Of a stretch of 64,000 nucleotides of DNA, positions 34,473-41,596 are shown piece after piece. Both the position numbers and the translations under genes were made by a program. Within the stretch, counting starts at the first letter, position 1; the number at the start of each line of letters is the position of its first letter. Below the pieces are notes generated by a model, which was not told the DNA's origin, ran no database searches, and saw nothing but the letters and a program-made list of their open reading frames with translations. The stretch is from Lachnospiraceae bacterium (lineage in GTDB: Bacteria > Bacillota > Clostridia > Lachnospirales > Lachnospiraceae): NCBI GenBank assembly GCA_900168235.1, contig FUZG01000008.1:62001-126000 (forward strand), given 5' to 3'.

Positions 34473-37400
34473 ATGAAAAGACCGAAGGTTGGAGACTGGA
34501 TAAAATATGATACCGGCAGAACCTTTTGGATGATCGTGATCTGTTTGTTGAGCCTTTTCCTTAATCTGGTATTTATGTTCCAGAATTATGGATTATTAAA
34601 GGTGCAGTTTACAGGTACGCTGCTTGCATCTTCTATTTGCGGCGGATTTCCGGGGGCTGTTGTTACACTCGTTTCTTATTTCATTCTCGCGGTTACGACC
34701 GGAGCAGGGGTAGGAAAGGGTGTTTTTCTGCTGCTCATCTGTCTCATGGCGTCTGTTTTTACATCCAGAGGGTGCTTTAAGACGATACATGGGACTGTTT
34801 TCTATATCATATCGATTTCAGTGACGGAAGAGCTGTATATGCTTGTGGTCTATCTGACAGACGCATATATGGAAAATAAAGGGATGGATTCGGTCGTAAG
34901 GGGAATACTCCATTCGGCCGGGCGCATAGTGCCGGGAGTATTGCTGGCGGTTGCGATCATAATCCTTTTTTATAAGTTTATTCCGGACCGTATCCTGTTG
35001 TTCTTCGGGAACAGCCAGCACTATCTGAAGGATAGGGAACTTAGGGAGCATATCGAGAAGAGCATATTTGATGATTCTACCAGATCGCTCAGGGGAAAGA
35101 TATCAAAGATCATTCTTCTCACAGCGACAGTAATGATGATATCTTCAGTGATATTTGTAAATATCCTGATCGCAAATACCATGAACGGTTCAGTTTCCCT
35201 AAAGCTGGATTTTAACGGCAAATATCCGACAACGGTAGGAAAACTGGGTTCGGTAGGATCAGCGGGAACGCCTGATGAGTCTAAAAATTTCCAAAAAATC
35301 AAGGAAGAGACTCTGAAAAAGATCGACGCATTGCAGAACATGCCGACCGGAATGAATGCAGAGGTAAGAAGCCGCCTTTCTGATATAAGGAAGACCATAA
35401 ATCAGAATGATGCACAAAAAAATGCAGATTCCAACGAGTCTGACGCATTTTTAAGGATGCTGAAGGATCAGTTCTATTTTTATCTCCAGATGATCTTTTC
35501 GCTCCTCATGGTTGAGATGTGTCTGGTCCTTGTGATGGATTCCTATGCCCAGAGAAAGATCGTTATTCCGATACTCCGGGTAGCATCAGCGATGGATCAG
35601 CTAGCTTATAACAGTGATGAGGAACGGCGGGAGAGCCTTGCAAAGATACATGCGCTTGAGGTACAGACAGGTGATGAGATAGAGTCGCTTTATCATGCTA
35701 TAGATAAGACGGCTTCAGAGCTCCTTGCCTATCTTGCGAATAAAGAAAAACAGGTGGCGCTGGAAAATGAGCTTAAGGTCGCAAAAGCCGCAAATGACGC
35801 AAAGACCAGCTTTTTATCCAGTATGTCGCATGAGATCAGAACGCCTATAAATGCTGTCCTCGGAATGGATGAAATGATCCTTCGTGAATCTGAGGACCAG
35901 ACTATACTGCGTTACGCGAAAAATATCCAGAGCGCCGGAAAAACACTGCTGGGTCTTATTAATGATATCCTTGATTTCTCCAAGATCGAAGCCGGAAAAA
36001 TGGAGATCATCCCGGTGGATTACGAGCTGAGCTCTGTAGTAAATGACCTTGTAAACATGATTAGGAGCAAGGCTGACGCAAAGAAACTGGATCTGGTCGT
36101 AAATGTTGATGCCCAGATGCCTCATTTATTCAGAGGTGATGAGATCAGGTTAAAGCAGGTCGTGCTCAACATCCTTACAAATGCAGTAAAATACACGGAA
36201 AAAGGAAGCGTTACTTTGTCCATAGGATATCGGAAGATCAATGAGAAAAACGTGGATCTCATGGTATCTGTCAAGGACACAGGCTCCGGTATCAGGGAAG
36301 AGGATATAGAGAAGCTTTTTGCGCCTTTTGAAAGAATAGATGAAAATAAGAACCGTACTATAGAAGGTACAGGACTCGGAATGAGCATAACCCAGAAGCT
36401 CCTGAACCTGATGGACAGTAAGCTGGAGCTGGACAGCGTGTACGGAGAAGGTTCGGACTTCCACTTTGCGGTGCCTCAGATCGTAAACAGCTGGGAACCT
36501 GTGGGAGATATTTCGGTGAATTTCGAGAAAGCCCTTGGCGAACAGCCCAGGTATCAGGAGACCTTCCGTGCGCCGGAAGCACATATCCTGGTGGTTGATG
36601 ATACGGAAATGAACCTTACCGTTGTACGCGGACTCCTTAAGAAGACCGGAGTAAAGATCGATACAGTCACGAGCGGAAGGCAGTGCCTTGAAAAGATCGC
36701 TGAGAAGAAGTATGACATTATCTTCCTCGATCACAGGATGCCGGAGCTTGACGGTGTAGAGACGCTGGAACTCATGAAAGCGGATCTCACCCACAAAAAT
36801 CAGGATACGCCTGTGGTGGCTCTCACAGCTAATGCGATTTCTGGAGCAAGGGAAAAATATATCAGTGCAGGTTTTTCGGATTACATGACGAAACCTATCG
36901 ACAGTGCCAGACTAGAAAGAACGATGATCAATTTTTTGCCGGAGGATAAGGTTGAGATCGTGAGGGCGGAAGAGGAGTCTGAAGAGGACCTGAGTGCCCT
37001 TCCTGACTGGGTTCGAGAGGCAGAGGGAATGGACATTGATACAGGTATACGGAATACCGGTTCCGCAGAAGATTTTATGAAAGCACTGCAACTTTTTGCA
37101 GATAACATTTCAGAAAATCTGAAAAAAATCCGATTATTTTATGAGAGGAGCGATTTTCAGAATTATAATATAAAAGTGCATTCGTTAAAGAGTTCTGCCA
37201 GGATGATCGGAGCTAAGGAATTGTCCGAGATGGCGGAACACCTGGAAAATGTCAGCGTTGAAGGCTCGGTGGATGAAGCAGAGATCGGGGAGAAGACACC
37301 GGAGCTTCTCGCGCGTTATGAAAAATATTTGGAGATATTGTCCCCGTTGATCACGGATGACACAGAAGAATGGATGAAGGAAATGAACGATCCGTCAAAG

Positions 37401-37607
37401 CCTGAGATAGAAAAACAGGCACTGGATGAAGCCTATGGATCGATCATAGAATGTGTGGATGCACTTGATTATGACAGTATCGAATTTTTGATACAGTCAC
37501 TTATGAAATATCGCATACCGAAAGAGGAGCAGCAGAAGATAGCAGGTCTCAGGAAGAGTATCGCGGAATTTGACTGGGACACTGTTGAAGAGCTTCTGAA
37601 GCAATAA
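34473..37607 (+). CDS. Hybrid sensor histidine kinase with receiver and Hpt domains
   Basis: A 1044-residue multi-domain kinase. Residues about 15-175 hold five to six transmembrane helices; another helix near 210-230 begins an extracytoplasmic segment of about 115 residues closed by a helix near 330-350; a HAMP-like and coiled segment leads to HisKA (SHEIRTP, phospho-His near 452), HATPase (NILTNAVKYTEKG, DTGSGI, GTGLGMS), a receiver (VVDDTEMN near 705, phospho-Asp in FLDHRMPE near 751) and an Hpt domain (VHSLKSSARM, His near 902). The last 70 residues form a small helical extension. The phosphorelay could pass to the receiver protein 17 bases downstream. Ligand unknown. Upstream 34230-34470 is AT-rich with an AATTGCACAAT/ATTGTGCAC inverted pair. 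Confidence 0.9.
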   Translation: MKRPKVGDWIKYDTGRTFWMIVICLLSLFLNLVFMFQNYGLLKVQFTGTLLASSICGGFPGAVVTLVSYFILAVTTGAGVGKGVFLLLICLMASVFTSRGCFKTIHGTVFYIISISVTEELYMLVVYLTDAYMENKGMDSVVRGILHSAGRIVPGVLLAVAIIILFYKFIPDRILLFFGNSQHYLKDRELREHIEKSIFDDSTRSLRGKISKIILLTATVMMISSVIFVNILIANTMNGSVSLKLDFNGKYPTTVGKLGSVGSAGTPDESKNFQKIKEETLKKIDALQNMPTGMNAEVRSRLSDIRKTINQNDAQKNADSNESDAFLRMLKDQFYFYLQMIFSLLMVEMCLVLVMDSYAQRKIVIPILRVASAMDQLAYNSDEERRESLAKIHALEVQTGDEIESLYHAIDKTASELLAYLANKEKQVALENELKVAKAANDAKTSFLSSMSHEIRTPINAVLGMDEMILRESEDQTILRYAKNIQSAGKTLLGLINDILDFSKIEAGKMEIIPVDYELSSVVNDLVNMIRSKADAKKLDLVVNVDAQMPHLFRGDEIRLKQVVLNILTNAVKYTEKGSVTLSIGYRKINEKNVDLMVSVKDTGSGIREEDIEKLFAPFERIDENKNRTIEGTGLGMSITQKLLNLMDSKLELDSVYGEGSDFHFAVPQIVNSWEPVGDISVNFEKALGEQPRYQETFRAPEAHILVVDDTEMNLTVVRGLLKKTGVKIDTVTSGRQCLEKIAEKKYDIIFLDHRMPELDGVETLELMKADLTHKNQDTPVVALTANAISGAREKYISAGFSDYMTKPIDSARLERTMINFLPEDKVEIVRAEEESEEDLSALPDWVREAEGMDIDTGIRNTGSAEDFMKALQLFADNISENLKKIRLFYERSDFQNYNIKVHSLKSSARMIGAKELSEMAEHLENVSVEGSVDEAEIGEKTPELLARYEKYLEILSPLITDDTEEWMKEMNDPSKPEIEKQALDEAYGSIIECVDALDYDSIEFLIQSLMKYRIPKEEQQKIAGLRKSIAEFDWDTVEELLKQ

Positions 37608-37624
37608 AGGGGAAGGAGCAGGCA

Positions 37625-38395
37625 ATGGAGAAGAAGATAATCCTTATAAGCAAGGGTTCGACCTTCATGGTGAGCGCGATCACCTCCAATCTGGAGGAAG
37701 CAGGTTATGAGGTGCTTCCGGCACTGCCGCAGATAGAGGATCTTTCGGAAAAGAAGGATCAGGTCGATATGATCGTTTTCTATCTGGGAGACTATATTGA
37801 GGAGATTCCGGAAACTCTGGCTTATTTAAAAGAGCTGGTGCTGGAAGAGAGAAAGCTCCTTTTCATCATAGGAAGTAATGATGAATTTTTTGAATTTGAC
37901 AGGAAAGTACCGGATCAGATCGACACCAGCAGGTTCCTGCGCCCGTTAAATGTCAGGGACCTTATCGAAAAGCTTAATGATGTGATCGAGGTCAATTCGG
38001 ATGATGACAGAAAGAAATCCATCATGATAGTGGATGATGATGTTATGTTCCTTAAGCTCATGAAGGAATGGCTGTCCGGTCCTTACCGCGTGACTATGGC
38101 TAATTCCGGTATGAGAGCCATTACTTATCTTGCAAATAATACGCCTGACCTGATCCTCCTTGATTATGAGATGCCTGTCACCAATGGTCCCCAGGTGCTC
38201 CAGATGATCAGGGATGAAGCTACGACTAATGCGATCCCTGTCATGTTCCTCACAGGAAAAAGTGACCGGGAGAGTGTTTTGAAGGTAGTTGGGCTGAAAC
38301 CTGACGGATATTTATTGAAATCCATGACCCGCGATGAGCTCCTTCAGCAGATAAGAGCATTTTTTGAAGAGCAGAAAATGAAGAGACTTCAGTGA
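37625..38395 (+). CDS. Two-receiver response regulator without output domain
   Basis: A 256-residue protein. The C-terminal half is a canonical receiver (IMIVDDDVMF near 138, phospho-Asp in LILLDYEMP near 183, Thr-Gly-Lys switch in FLTGKS). The N-terminal 125 residues have the same alternating fold (KKIILISKGS, VDMIVFYLGD) but lack the acidic pocket and have no clear phospho-Asp context, so appear to be a pseudo-receiver. No DNA-binding or enzymatic output follows, pointing to protein-protein signalling or a phosphate sink for the kinase upstream. Confidence 0.85.
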   Translation: MEKKIILISKGSTFMVSAITSNLEEAGYEVLPALPQIEDLSEKKDQVDMIVFYLGDYIEEIPETLAYLKELVLEERKLLFIIGSNDEFFEFDRKVPDQIDTSRFLRPLNVRDLIEKLNDVIEVNSDDDRKKSIMIVDDDVMFLKLMKEWLSGPYRVTMANSGMRAITYLANNTPDLILLDYEMPVTNGPQVLQMIRDEATTNAIPVMFLTGKSDRESVLKVVGLKPDGYLLKSMTRDELLQQIRAFFEEQKMKRLQ

Positions 38396-38473: not shown

Positions 38474-39271
38474 ATGGGACTTAAGAGAAGACGTATTGTA
38501 GTAAAAGTTGGCACATCAACACTGACAAATGAATTGGGACACAGTAATCTTCGCAGAATGGAGAAGCTTGCGCTGGTGCTCTCTGACATACAGAATATGG
38601 GGAATGAGGTAGTTCTGGTATCATCAGGAGCCATTGCAGTTGGAGCGCATAAGATGAGGCTTCCTGAGCGTCCTACGACTATGAGGATGAAGCAGGCGGC
38701 AGCGGCTGTTGGTCAGTGCGAGAATATGTTCCTCTATGACAAGTTTTTTGGCTACTATGATAAGACTGTAGCCCAGATACTGTTAAACGCAGAGGATATC
38801 AGACAGGAAGAAAAGAAGGAAAATCTTACAAATACCTTCAATGCCCTTTTAGAGCAGGGGATAATACCGATCGTTAATGAAAATGACTCTGTAAGCTATA
38901 CGGAGATCGAGTCTGCTGACCGTTTATTCGGTGATAATGATATGCTTTCTGCAGTGGTATCGGTTTTATGCCAGGCAGATATTCTGGTTATTTTTTCAGA
39001 TATTGACGGATTCTTTGATAAAGATCCGAGACTTTATAAAGATGCGAAGCTCATTGATCGTATCGATGAGATAAATGACAGCCTTTATGAGCTTGCAGGC
39101 GGTGCAGGTTCCCGCAGGGGCACAGGCGGCATGAGGACAAAGATCCAGGCGGCTGACCTTGCAACAGGACAGGGAATAAGCGTTATCGTGACAAACGGCA
39201 CCAGACCGGAAGCGCTGTATGACATCGTGGATGGTAAAAAAGTGGGAACACTTTTCAAAGGCAGAAGATAA
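38474..39271 (+). CDS. proB: Glutamate 5-kinase (no PUA domain)
   Basis: First step of proline synthesis from glutamate. The 265-residue amino-acid-kinase fold shows VVKVGTSTL, VLVSSGAIAVG, NENDSV, FGDNDMLSA, SDIDGFFDKDPR and GTGGMRTK, all ProB signatures. It ends where the fold ends; the C-terminal PUA domain of E. coli-type ProB is missing, as in several Firmicutes. AGGAAGG lies nine bases before ATG. proA is not adjacent. Confidence 0.93.
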   Translation: MGLKRRRIVVKVGTSTLTNELGHSNLRRMEKLALVLSDIQNMGNEVVLVSSGAIAVGAHKMRLPERPTTMRMKQAAAAVGQCENMFLYDKFFGYYDKTVAQILLNAEDIRQEEKKENLTNTFNALLEQGIIPIVNENDSVSYTEIESADRLFGDNDMLSAVVSVLCQADILVIFSDIDGFFDKDPRLYKDAKLIDRIDEINDSLYELAGGAGSRRGTGGMRTKIQAADLATGQGISVIVTNGTRPEALYDIVDGKKVGTLFKGRR

Positions 39272-39291
39272 AATTCAATAAGATCTTTCAG

Positions 39292-39318
39292 GAGCACCCG
39301 GGAGCGGGTGCTCTTTTT
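39292..39318 (+). terminator. Terminator after proB
   Basis: GAGCACCCG, GGAG loop, CGGGTGCTC, then five T: a perfect nine-pair intrinsic terminator. Confidence 0.92.
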
Positions 39319-39481
39319 GCTTATATCATTAATATTTTGAATGATGAAAAAAGCATGTTCAAAAAATTGAATTGTTTATAAAGAAACCCTAAAATACGTG
39401 ACTTTTTTGGCGCCGAATCTATATATAAACCAAATAAAGAATAAAATTAATCAACACAATACATTAAAATCGTCCCTACAC

Positions 39482-39510
39482 TTTACGCTGTTAAAGTGTT
39501 ATCATAACTT
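39482..39510 (+). promoter_or_regulatory. Possible promoter and operator of the leuA fusion
   Basis: TTTACG (39482-39487), 17 bases, TAACTT (39505-39510) is a weak promoter. It overlaps the near-palindrome GTTAT-C-ATAAC (39498-39508) within AAAGT...TTT. The 39272-39604 spacer otherwise contains the proB terminator and AT-rich DNA; I see no T-box or leader peptide. Confidence 0.3.
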
Positions 39511-39604
39511 TCATCAAAAAAGTTGACGAATCGTGTAATGTTTCCGATTTTTTTGGACGATAATAGAAGGGTATTTGGAAAAGCGTTCGGAGGTTGATGC
39601 AGTT

Positions 39605-41596
39605 ATGTATGATGGAAATAAATATGCTATTCAGTATTTCATGCCGGAGAAGCCAACATATAACTGGGTAAAGAAGGACCATATCACAAAGGCTCCTATA
39701 TGGTGCAGTGTGGATTTAAGAGACGGAAACCAGGCTCTTATCGAACCCATGGGACTTGATGAGAAGCTGGAATTTTTCCAGATGCTGGTTGATATCGGTT
39801 TCAAGGAGATCGAGATCGGATTCCCTGCGGCATCTGATACAGAGTATCAGTTTGCACGAACTCTTATCGAGAGAAACATGGTTCCGGAAGATGTGACTCT
39901 CCAGGTTCTGACACAGGCAAGAGAGCATATCATCCGAAAGACATTTGAGGCAGTAAAGGGTGCACCCCATGCCATCATCCATCTTTATAATTCAACATCT
40001 GTGGCTCAGAGAGAGCAGGTGTTCAAGAAGAATAAAGAAGATATAAAGAATATTGCTGTTGAGGGTGCTAAGCTCTTAAAGCAGCTCGCAGATGAGACAA
40101 AGGGTAATTTCTCTTTTGAGTACTCACCTGAAAGCTTCCCCGGAACAGAAGTTGAGTATGCCATAGATGTCTGCAACGCGGTTCTTGATGTATGGAAGCC
40201 GAAGCCGGACAAAAAGGTCATCATCAACATTCCTACTACAGTAGAGAATGCAATGCCTCATGTTTTTGCGACTCAGGTAGAGTGCATCAGCAACAATCTG
40301 AAATATCGTGAAGCAGTTACACTTTCACTTCACCCGCATAACGACAGAGGATGCGGTGTTTCCGATGCAGAGCTCGGACTCCTTGCAGGAGCGGACAGAA
40401 TCGAGGGTACTCTTTTCGGAAACGGTGAGAGAACAGGAAATGTGGACATCATCACTCTTGCCATGAATATGTTCACTCACGGAGTTGATTCCAAGCTTGA
40501 TTTTTCACATATAAATGAGATAGGAAATGTTTTCGAGCGTCTGACAAGAATGGAGATCCCTGCCAGACAGCCATATGCAGGACAGCTGGTATTTACAGCT
40601 TTCTCAGGATCTCATCAGGATGCGATCGCAAAAGGATTTGCATGGCGCAAAGCTCACCTGGACCGTCCCTGGAGTGTTCCTTACCTTCCTGTCGATCCGA
40701 AAGATCTTGGCAGGGAGTACGACGGGGATGTCATCCGTATCAATTCCCAGTCCGGAAAGGGCGGCGTAAGCTTTATCCTGAAGCAGAACTATGGTCTCCA
40801 GATCCCGAAGATCATGCAGGAGGATGTAGGATATACAGTAAAGGGCATCTCAGACAGAGAGCATGCTGAGCTGTCACCTGATCGCGTATATCATATTTTT
40901 GAAGATAAATACATCCATAATGAAGGCGTATTTACTATAAAAGAGTGCCATTTCGAGCAGGTTGACGGTATCCTTGTAAAAGCTACCATCACGAGAAACG
41001 GCAAGGATGTAGTCGTAGCTGCAAACGGTAATGGTCGTCTGGATGCCGTGAGCAATGCTATCAAGTCATATTTTGACATCAGCTACGAGCTCACAACATA
41101 CGAAGAGCACGCTTTGAGCCATGGTTCATCCAGTAAGGCGTGCACATACGTAGGAATCACTGCAAACGGAAAGCATTACTGGGGCGTTGGAATTGACGAG
41201 GATATCATCACATCATCCATCCATGCTCTGATAGTCGCAGTGAACCAGATGGAAGCTATCCGTGACAATAAAAATGACAAGGATCAGAGGATCACTGAGA
41301 TCGTTAATTACATTCAGGAAAATTATCTGTCTGTAACACTTGATGATCTGTCCCGTGAGTTCTTCCTGTCAAAACCGTATCTTTCCAAATATATCAAGGA
41401 AAAGAGCGGTGCCACATTCAGTGAGAATGTACAGAAGATCCGATTAAAGAAGGCATGCACGCTTCTCCGCAACGGAAACATGAAGGTTGAAAAGGTCGCT
41501 GAAAATGTCGGTTACCCGAGTGTAGAGCACTTCAACCGTCAGTTTAAGAAGAGATACGGCATGACACCCGTGCAGTACCGCAATTCCAAGCGTTGA
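39605..41596 (+). CDS. leuA: 2-Isopropylmalate synthase fused to an AraC-type DNA-binding domain
   Basis: Residues 1 to about 555 are a full-length 2-isopropylmalate synthase (acetyl-CoA plus 2-ketoisovalerate, first committed step of leucine synthesis): DLRDGNQAL, the metal site HPHNDRGCG near residue 240, GNGERTGNVD, and the C-terminal leucine-binding/dimer domain through ACTYVG and HALIVAVNQM. About residue 558 onward is a complete AraC/XylS domain with both helix-turn-helix units (VTLDDLSREFFLSKPYLSKYI quoted as VTLDDLSREFF and YLSKYIKEKSG; then VEKVAENVGYP and FNRQFKKRYGMTPVQYR). The reading frame is uninterrupted. I start at ATG 39605, 11 bases after GGAGG; a TTG ten codons upstream is possible. 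No other leu or ilv gene is nearby. The enzyme may act as a leucine-sensing transcription factor (inference). Confidence 0.92.
   Translation: MYDGNKYAIQYFMPEKPTYNWVKKDHITKAPIWCSVDLRDGNQALIEPMGLDEKLEFFQMLVDIGFKEIEIGFPAASDTEYQFARTLIERNMVPEDVTLQVLTQAREHIIRKTFEAVKGAPHAIIHLYNSTSVAQREQVFKKNKEDIKNIAVEGAKLLKQLADETKGNFSFEYSPESFPGTEVEYAIDVCNAVLDVWKPKPDKKVIINIPTTVENAMPHVFATQVECISNNLKYREAVTLSLHPHNDRGCGVSDAELGLLAGADRIEGTLFGNGERTGNVDIITLAMNMFTHGVDSKLDFSHINEIGNVFERLTRMEIPARQPYAGQLVFTAFSGSHQDAIAKGFAWRKAHLDRPWSVPYLPVDPKDLGREYDGDVIRINSQSGKGGVSFILKQNYGLQIPKIMQEDVGYTVKGISDREHAELSPDRVYHIFEDKYIHNEGVFTIKECHFEQVDGILVKATITRNGKDVVVAANGNGRLDAVSNAIKSYFDISYELTTYEEHALSHGSSSKACTYVGITANGKHYWGVGIDEDIITSSIHALIVAVNQMEAIRDNKNDKDQRITEIVNYIQENYLSVTLDDLSREFFLSKPYLSKYIKEKSGATFSENVQKIRLKKACTLLRNGNMKVEKVAENVGYPSVEHFNRQFKKRYGMTPVQYRNSKR

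Follow-up and report, generated by a model that had tools for sequence, protein, structure and literature searches.

In the window, the 64,000-nucleotide stretch of Lachnospiraceae DNA analysed here, a single forward-strand frame encodes a 2-isopropylmalate synthase (LeuA) that continues into an AraC-type DNA-binding domain. The open reading frame extends from a TTG at 39575 to 41596, and the likely start of this leuA-araC fusion gene (39605–41596; 663 aa) is the ATG at 39605, preceded in the sequence by a Shine-Dalgarno motif, GGAGG, at 39589–39593; the stop codon is TGA at 41594–41596. The LeuA half is complete and of the yeast/actinobacterial type, comprising in order, by Pfam, the HMGL-like catalytic domain (residues 31–309; 39695–40531), the post-catalytic IPMS_D2 domain (residues 328–393; 40586–40783), which includes H337 and Y360, and the LeuA_dimer leucine allosteric domain (residues 422–549; 40868–41251), while the NCBIfam 2-isopropylmalate synthase model PRK03739 matches residues 6–548 with 791 bits. 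A short linker (residues 550–560; 41252–41284), delimited by Pfam and by the predicted model, leads to the AraC DNA-binding domain at about residues 561–661 (41285–41587), which has seven helices and two helix-turn-helix units; HTH_18 covers residues 582–660 at 72.3 bits (curated cut-off 33.6) and HTH_AraC residues 621–660. Every Pfam domain scored above its own curated cut-off, which bears out the first-pass annotation in its claim that LeuA and a full AraC domain occupy one frame, and 39605–41596 is free of the stop or frameshift near 41270 that had been named as a possible refutation. Enzyme and DNA-binding domain thus share one chain, the architecture of a trigger enzyme.

Upstream of the fusion lies proB (38474–39271), encoding a short glutamate 5-kinase of 265 aa that matches only positions 1–254 of the 363-position model and lacks the usual C-terminal part. 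Before proB, 34473–38395 encodes, as judged by eye, two proteins: a hybrid sensor kinase of 1044 aa that includes receiver domains, and a receiver protein of 256 aa.

The nearest solved relative of the window protein, both by sequence and by predicted fold, is the LeuA of Mycobacterium tuberculosis, which has also been solved with leucine bound; residue numbering between the two was checked by eye on their alignment. Across 44 fusion proteins, R39, D40, E176, H243, H245, N279, H337 and Y360, whose metal-binding and catalytic roles we assume from the M. tuberculosis enzyme, are identical in all. At the leucine site, presumed to correspond to the known M. tuberculosis site, all 44 fusions retain G475, G477, Y499, A512 and I534, and 43 of them retain L479; position 503 is variable (A in 22 fusions, including that of the window, and S in 20), and at positions 478 and 480 no fusion has the residue of the M. 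tuberculosis enzyme. A separate alignment of the AraC domain took in 43 of the 44 fusions. Structure prediction, based on an alignment of 39 of the 44 fusion sequences, gave a model with mean pLDDT 78 and pTM 0.50, in which the final helix of the leucine domain is connected through a short linker to seven AraC helices at 561–661; the model is poor at 321–345 and 354–386, part of the catalytic region. The best reading of these features is that the window protein would be an active, leucine-inhibited synthase. Median dN/dS was 0.016 for the AraC part and 0.025 for the LeuA part over the 9 usable, non-independent pairs out of 465, and by this measure the AraC part is under purifying selection, as is the LeuA part.

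Distribution and ancestry of the fusion

The family Lachnospiraceae was sampled with 200 genomes from 199 genera (about one per genus), 198 of which gave a match. Full-length fusions occur in 44 of the 200, the window's own genome included, and the other 43 are 62–72% identical to the window protein, with alignments reaching about residue 660; the remaining strong matches end near residue 550, apart from a few that continue across stops and one truncated where its contig finishes. Beyond the family, one carrier (G478) was found among 398 genomes drawn from the phylum, and none among the genomes of other families within 246 drawn from the order. In a search of named genomes, a collection distinct from the family sample, with the AraC part, 76 of the best 80 of 577 relatives are single-frame fusions; two of the other four are cut by contig ends, one has a stop in the LeuA part, and one is a single 703-aa frame that the motif test missed and that therefore stands outside the 76. 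Among these best 80, Lachnospiraceae bacterium MC2017 comes closest (98% over the AraC part), and carriers include Butyrivibrio species, among them B. proteoclasticus and B. hungatei, Acetitomaculum ruminis, Cuneatibacter, metagenome-assembled genomes (MAGs) of Roseburia and Eubacterium, Sporomusa, Pelosinus and a Peptococcaceae MAG.

The first-pass annotation had proposed a search for proteins combining HMGL-like, LeuA_dimer and HTH_18 domains, and the family and named-genome counts reveal a conserved subfamily rather than a lone curiosity; the same counts rule out an assembly artefact as the source of the fusion. The concern that the two parts might always be separate genes in close relatives fails on the 44 one-frame cases, yet the sample contained just one further genome from the window's genus (G079; locus L245), and it is without the fusion, carrying instead an AraC-less LeuA that is 49% identical and lacks the upstream block, O1, discussed below.

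In two relatives, L046 and L050, the gene is interrupted and an intact AraC part directly follows leuA in another frame; in L167 a stop interrupts the LeuA part. These interruptions could represent split genes, frameshifts or sequencing errors. Three loci labelled AraC-less in the first O1 comparison count as fusion-type in the tree and in the 128-locus, O2 and -10 counts: L045, truncated by a contig end, and L046 and L050, with their downstream AraC domain. In a quick tree of LeuA sequences alone (128 rows), fusions group together, with 8 label changes against 43 in shuffles, a pattern that fits a single origin, loss on several occasions and transfer into the Sporomusa group, at the limited support offered by FastTree.

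The O1 block upstream of leuA

A block common to fusion genes was first seen in the 260 bases preceding 30 of them. This putative operator, O1, spans about 30 bp with the consensus ATCAA-N6-TGATTAAA-N4-TCACT and lies at a fixed distance upstream of the -10 element. The window copy (39448–39481, forward strand), TAATCAACACAATACATTAAAATCGTCCCTACAC, is diverged and, at 23.8 bits, among the weaker ones; its variant recurs in the near relatives L146 and L147, and it is the sole match in its own genome to the own-clade pattern at up to three mismatches. That pattern has no match in seven genomes of the nearest fusion-bearing genus, whose O1 copies score 18.8–35.8 bits by matrix.

The matrix (34 positions) was trained on the 44 fusion loci, and 38 of these loci carry O1 above 20 bits within 500 nt; a site alignment took in 35 of 40 identified sites. 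Two others (L002 and L003) have O1 beyond 500 nt upstream, two (L042 and L044) have diverged matches of 13–14 bits at a fitting place, and in two (L039 and L041) the matrix found no convincing site. Among 66 loci first labelled AraC-less, the top three matches were L045, L046 and L050, and the other 63 scored at most 5.4 bits. In the 128-locus set, O1 above 11 bits accompanies 62 of 65 fusion-type loci and none of the 63 AraC-less loci, although 61 of 65 is the safer count because the L039 match, at -51, runs into the ribosome site and is probably spurious; no clear O1 was found by matrix in L041, L206 and L212. All nine AraC-less genes nested among fusions in the quick tree lack O1. The named set is largely independent of the training loci, although L221 and L225, for example, carry the same sites as L004 and L006; in it, 67 of 76 fused loci exceed 11 bits, those of Sporomusa and Pelosinus included; of the nine that fall below, L163 and L181 apparently carry a 1-bp gap. 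Since the loci are related, such counts are inflated; over independent contrasts, four of them well supported (eight on the best tree), O1 tracks the AraC domain in 3.4 of 4 and never opposes it, giving a median sign-test p of 0.125. The first-pass annotation had proposed 39272–39604 as a region to test for binding, and an operator-like block does lie there, one that among the tested loci occurs only with AraC-bearing leuA.

Of 47 fusion-type genomes scanned with an O1 profile, R1, 36 had their strongest site at leuA (E ≤ 2.2e-4); the best site elsewhere reached 6e-4, one other place, in G047, was listed at E ≤ 0.001, and 47 AraC-less control genomes gave a best match of 0.004. The other 11 fusion-type genomes, the window's own among them, yielded no R1 site at E ≤ 2.2e-4, their leuA sites being ranked weakly (G042) or not at all. 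In the window's genome, the best R1 match (0.129) lies on another contig, and the leuA site goes unranked because the window copy is diverged. Filtering in these scans was strict, with no more than 150 candidates scored per genome, so weaker targets may exist, and since R1 was built from leuA sites the scans are informative solely about the lack of strong sites elsewhere. One ilvN and one leuB locus were scored in each of 30 fusion genomes; none of the 60 carries O1 above 20 bits and two exceed 11. Two weak candidate second targets were rejected: the G036 site near ilvN (L254) is a palindromic stem resembling a terminator after the upstream gene, and this ilvN has its own TTGACA promoter; the G047 site (L253) precedes a gene that by eye is PspA-like and has no leucine link. 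From these scans, O1 seems to serve a single gene, leuA.

One alternative assigns O1 to another regulator and makes the fused AraC domain a passenger. In its favour, some genomes have a partly palindromic O1, and binding by the AraC domain is a prediction; against it stand the absence of O1 from all AraC-less loci of the 128-locus set, its company with the fusion in Sporomusa and Pelosinus, the near lack of a second strong place in the scanned genomes and the purifying selection on the AraC domain. Co-occurrence and selection together make a passenger role unlikely, and we consider this explanation highly improbable.

In eight loci (L013, L016, L017, L020, L021, L023, L034 and L045), O1 is merged with an apparent intrinsic terminator directly upstream of the -10, consisting of GGAAAGTGA or GGGAAGTGA, a roughly complementary TCACTTYCC and a T-rich run.

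Promoter geometry and T-box leaders

Downstream of O1, the window carries an extended -10 element (TGT TATCAT; 39497–39505, forward strand), the hexamer of which lies 50 bp after the ATCAA of O1. With the -10 taken as the best candidate in a 22-bp range, this distance, counted from the first base of ATCAA, is 49–50 bp in 96 of 112 loci; TG precedes the -10 in 94 of 112, a count biased upward because the choice of -10 rewarded TG. The -35 element is, by comparison, no better than expected: O1 loci match 2.97 of 6 positions against 2.65 by chance, and the sigma-70 score of 38 T-box-free fusion promoters (the 300 nt leading up to the start codon) is 8.82 against 8.85 in their own shuffles, whereas 39 T-box leuA promoters of AraC-less genes (600 to 300 nt upstream of it) score 9.74 against 8.61 in theirs. 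Correspondingly, a -35 of at least 5/6 is found in 53% of the T-box-free fusion promoters (55% shuffled) and in 90% of the AraC-less T-box promoters (51% shuffled). Because fusion promoters lack a -35 and hold O1 at fixed spacing, the 3′ end of O1 appears to take the -35 place. In class II activation by AraC proteins, the operator adjoins, at constant spacing, a -35 that is weak or missing, and O1 displays this geometry.

A possible second site, O2 (ATCAA-N6-TGACGAAT; 39513–39531, forward strand), lies 63 bp after O1 in the window. Weaker second copies lie downstream of O1 at 62–63 bp in 43 of 111 loci and at 73–74 bp in 13 of 111, offsets one helical turn apart; grouped into 45 sequence clusters, 13 fall at 62–63 and four at 73–74. 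O2 is suggestive only, since relatedness by itself, in column-shuffled cores, gave at least 35 pairs in 5% of 200 trials and up to 52, against the 43 observed, and since the reverse-complement core also peaks, at 59 bp in 25 loci. Support for O2 as a second operator site is accordingly moderate.

These observations also bear on negative autoregulation, in which the fusion, bound at O1 and O2, would block RNA polymerase in the manner of PutA with leucine as corepressor. The position of O1 against the -35, the placing of the possible O2 approximately at the expected transcription start and the phased clustering of O2 offsets are compatible with such a repressor, but the shuffled-core, reverse-complement and cluster counts weaken O2, and an activator fits better because the -35 of fusion promoters does not rise above chance. 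We regard repression as unlikely and prefer activation from O1.

A T-box, an RNA leader that reads tRNA charging and adjusts leuA to amino-acid supply, precedes leuA, by Rfam, in 39 of 49 close AraC-less loci and in six of 47 fusion-type loci (L002, L003, L019, L024, L033 and L038), many loci being covered by only 500–700 nt of upstream DNA; the distant LeuA class has none in 14 loci. Of ten named fusion loci, the eight chosen for their long leaders all have T-box and O1 together, and therefore the two controls can be stacked; no T-box was found in the remaining two, L146 and L171. Over the independent contrasts, T-box and AraC domain show a weak trend, with mostly no difference (3.0 of 4). 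From this distribution, the protein fusion appears to take the place of the T-box. Clostridiales-1 RNA (RF01699) was also recorded on the minus strand at two loci, between T-box and leuA in L054 (2072–2235) and beyond the 3′ end of leuA, on the strand opposite to it, in L105 (2437–2595).

The T-box distribution is relevant to a further alternative, namely that the AraC domain is an activator reporting a signal other than leucine, such as the amount of synthase or its occupancy by 2-ketoisovalerate. Conservation of the AraC domain and O1 would suit this, the tie between leucine and DNA binding being drawn from domain order; nevertheless, the leucine domain immediately precedes the DNA-binding domain, the leucine site is largely conserved, and a T-box, as called by Rfam family, is often present where AraC is absent. 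A non-leucine signal therefore strikes us as quite doubtful, and leucine is retained as the signal in the reading set out below.

Proposed mechanism and meaning

Taken together, we think it reasonably probable that LeuA-AraC is a trigger enzyme, that is, a leucine-inhibited synthase whose AraC domain activates its own promoter at O1, an activity that leucine probably lowers. The fused C-terminal domain would read the single O1 just upstream of its own promoter, and the bound fusion would activate leuA transcription from the -35 position, substituting for the -35 element; in most family members with the fusion, O1 and the AraC domain would replace the T-box leader of close relatives. Because the AraC domain stands about 11 residues behind the leucine allosteric domain, leucine, and perhaps the 2-ketoacid substrate as well, probably alters DNA binding, a gating proposed from domain order, and plentiful leucine would then mean less leuA transcription. 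A more speculative extension, to which we give rather low credence, is that with leucine the two AraC domains of a homodimer span the six or seven helical turns from O1 to O2 and shut the intervening promoter, whereas without leucine one domain at O1 recruits polymerase; AraC itself uses a second phased site for looping.

Metabolic enzymes that also regulate transcription, such as PutA, BirA and NadR, are known as trigger enzymes, and PutA binds only between putA and putP, controlling its own gene (PMC8249747). Like PutA, LeuA-AraC would pair a metabolic enzyme with transcriptional regulation of its own gene. Unlike PutA, a catabolic repressor with a ribbon-helix-helix DNA-binding domain, it represents a committed, end-product-inhibited biosynthetic step, carries an AraC domain and has a promoter pointing to activation. 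The fusion shares domain order, catalytic residues and most leucine-site residues with M. tuberculosis 2-isopropylmalate synthase (1sr9, 3fig), but the latter ends after LeuA_dimer, without a DNA-binding domain. With AraC/XylS regulators such as AraC and RhaS, it has in common a C-terminal seven-helix domain with two helix-turn-helix units, a sensor part before it and an operator beside the promoter; those regulators have a cupin or receiver domain as their sensor, whereas here a whole biosynthetic enzyme stands in that position. Among solved structures, YesN-type response regulators are nearest to the AraC domain. As with T-box control, the fusion would adjust leuA expression to amino-acid supply; the T-box, unlike LeuA-AraC, is an RNA leader; the search for it was negative at 41 of the 47 fusion-type loci of the family, and it occurs with O1 in others, such as Sporomusa.

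A full-text literature search, judged by titles and the beginnings of abstracts and lying mostly outside subscription journals, returned no description of a LeuA-AraC fusion. Within that scope, the earlier statement that this architecture has no described example holds, although enzyme-regulator fusions as such are already known. New here is O1, common to fusion leuA genes and nearly confined to leuA.

Separate sensors normally serve the inhibition of an enzyme by its end product and the end-product control of its gene; if the proposed mechanism is true, both leucine controls could share one leucine site in one chain, and a gene whose sole annotation is leuA may encode a transcription factor. 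LeuA-AraC could also serve as a natural leucine-responsive activator for work in Clostridia. Its carriers are common gut and rumen bacteria, in which, should the bridging model hold, one polypeptide would close both the fast (allosteric) and the slow (transcriptional) leucine loops, rendering the T-box dispensable.
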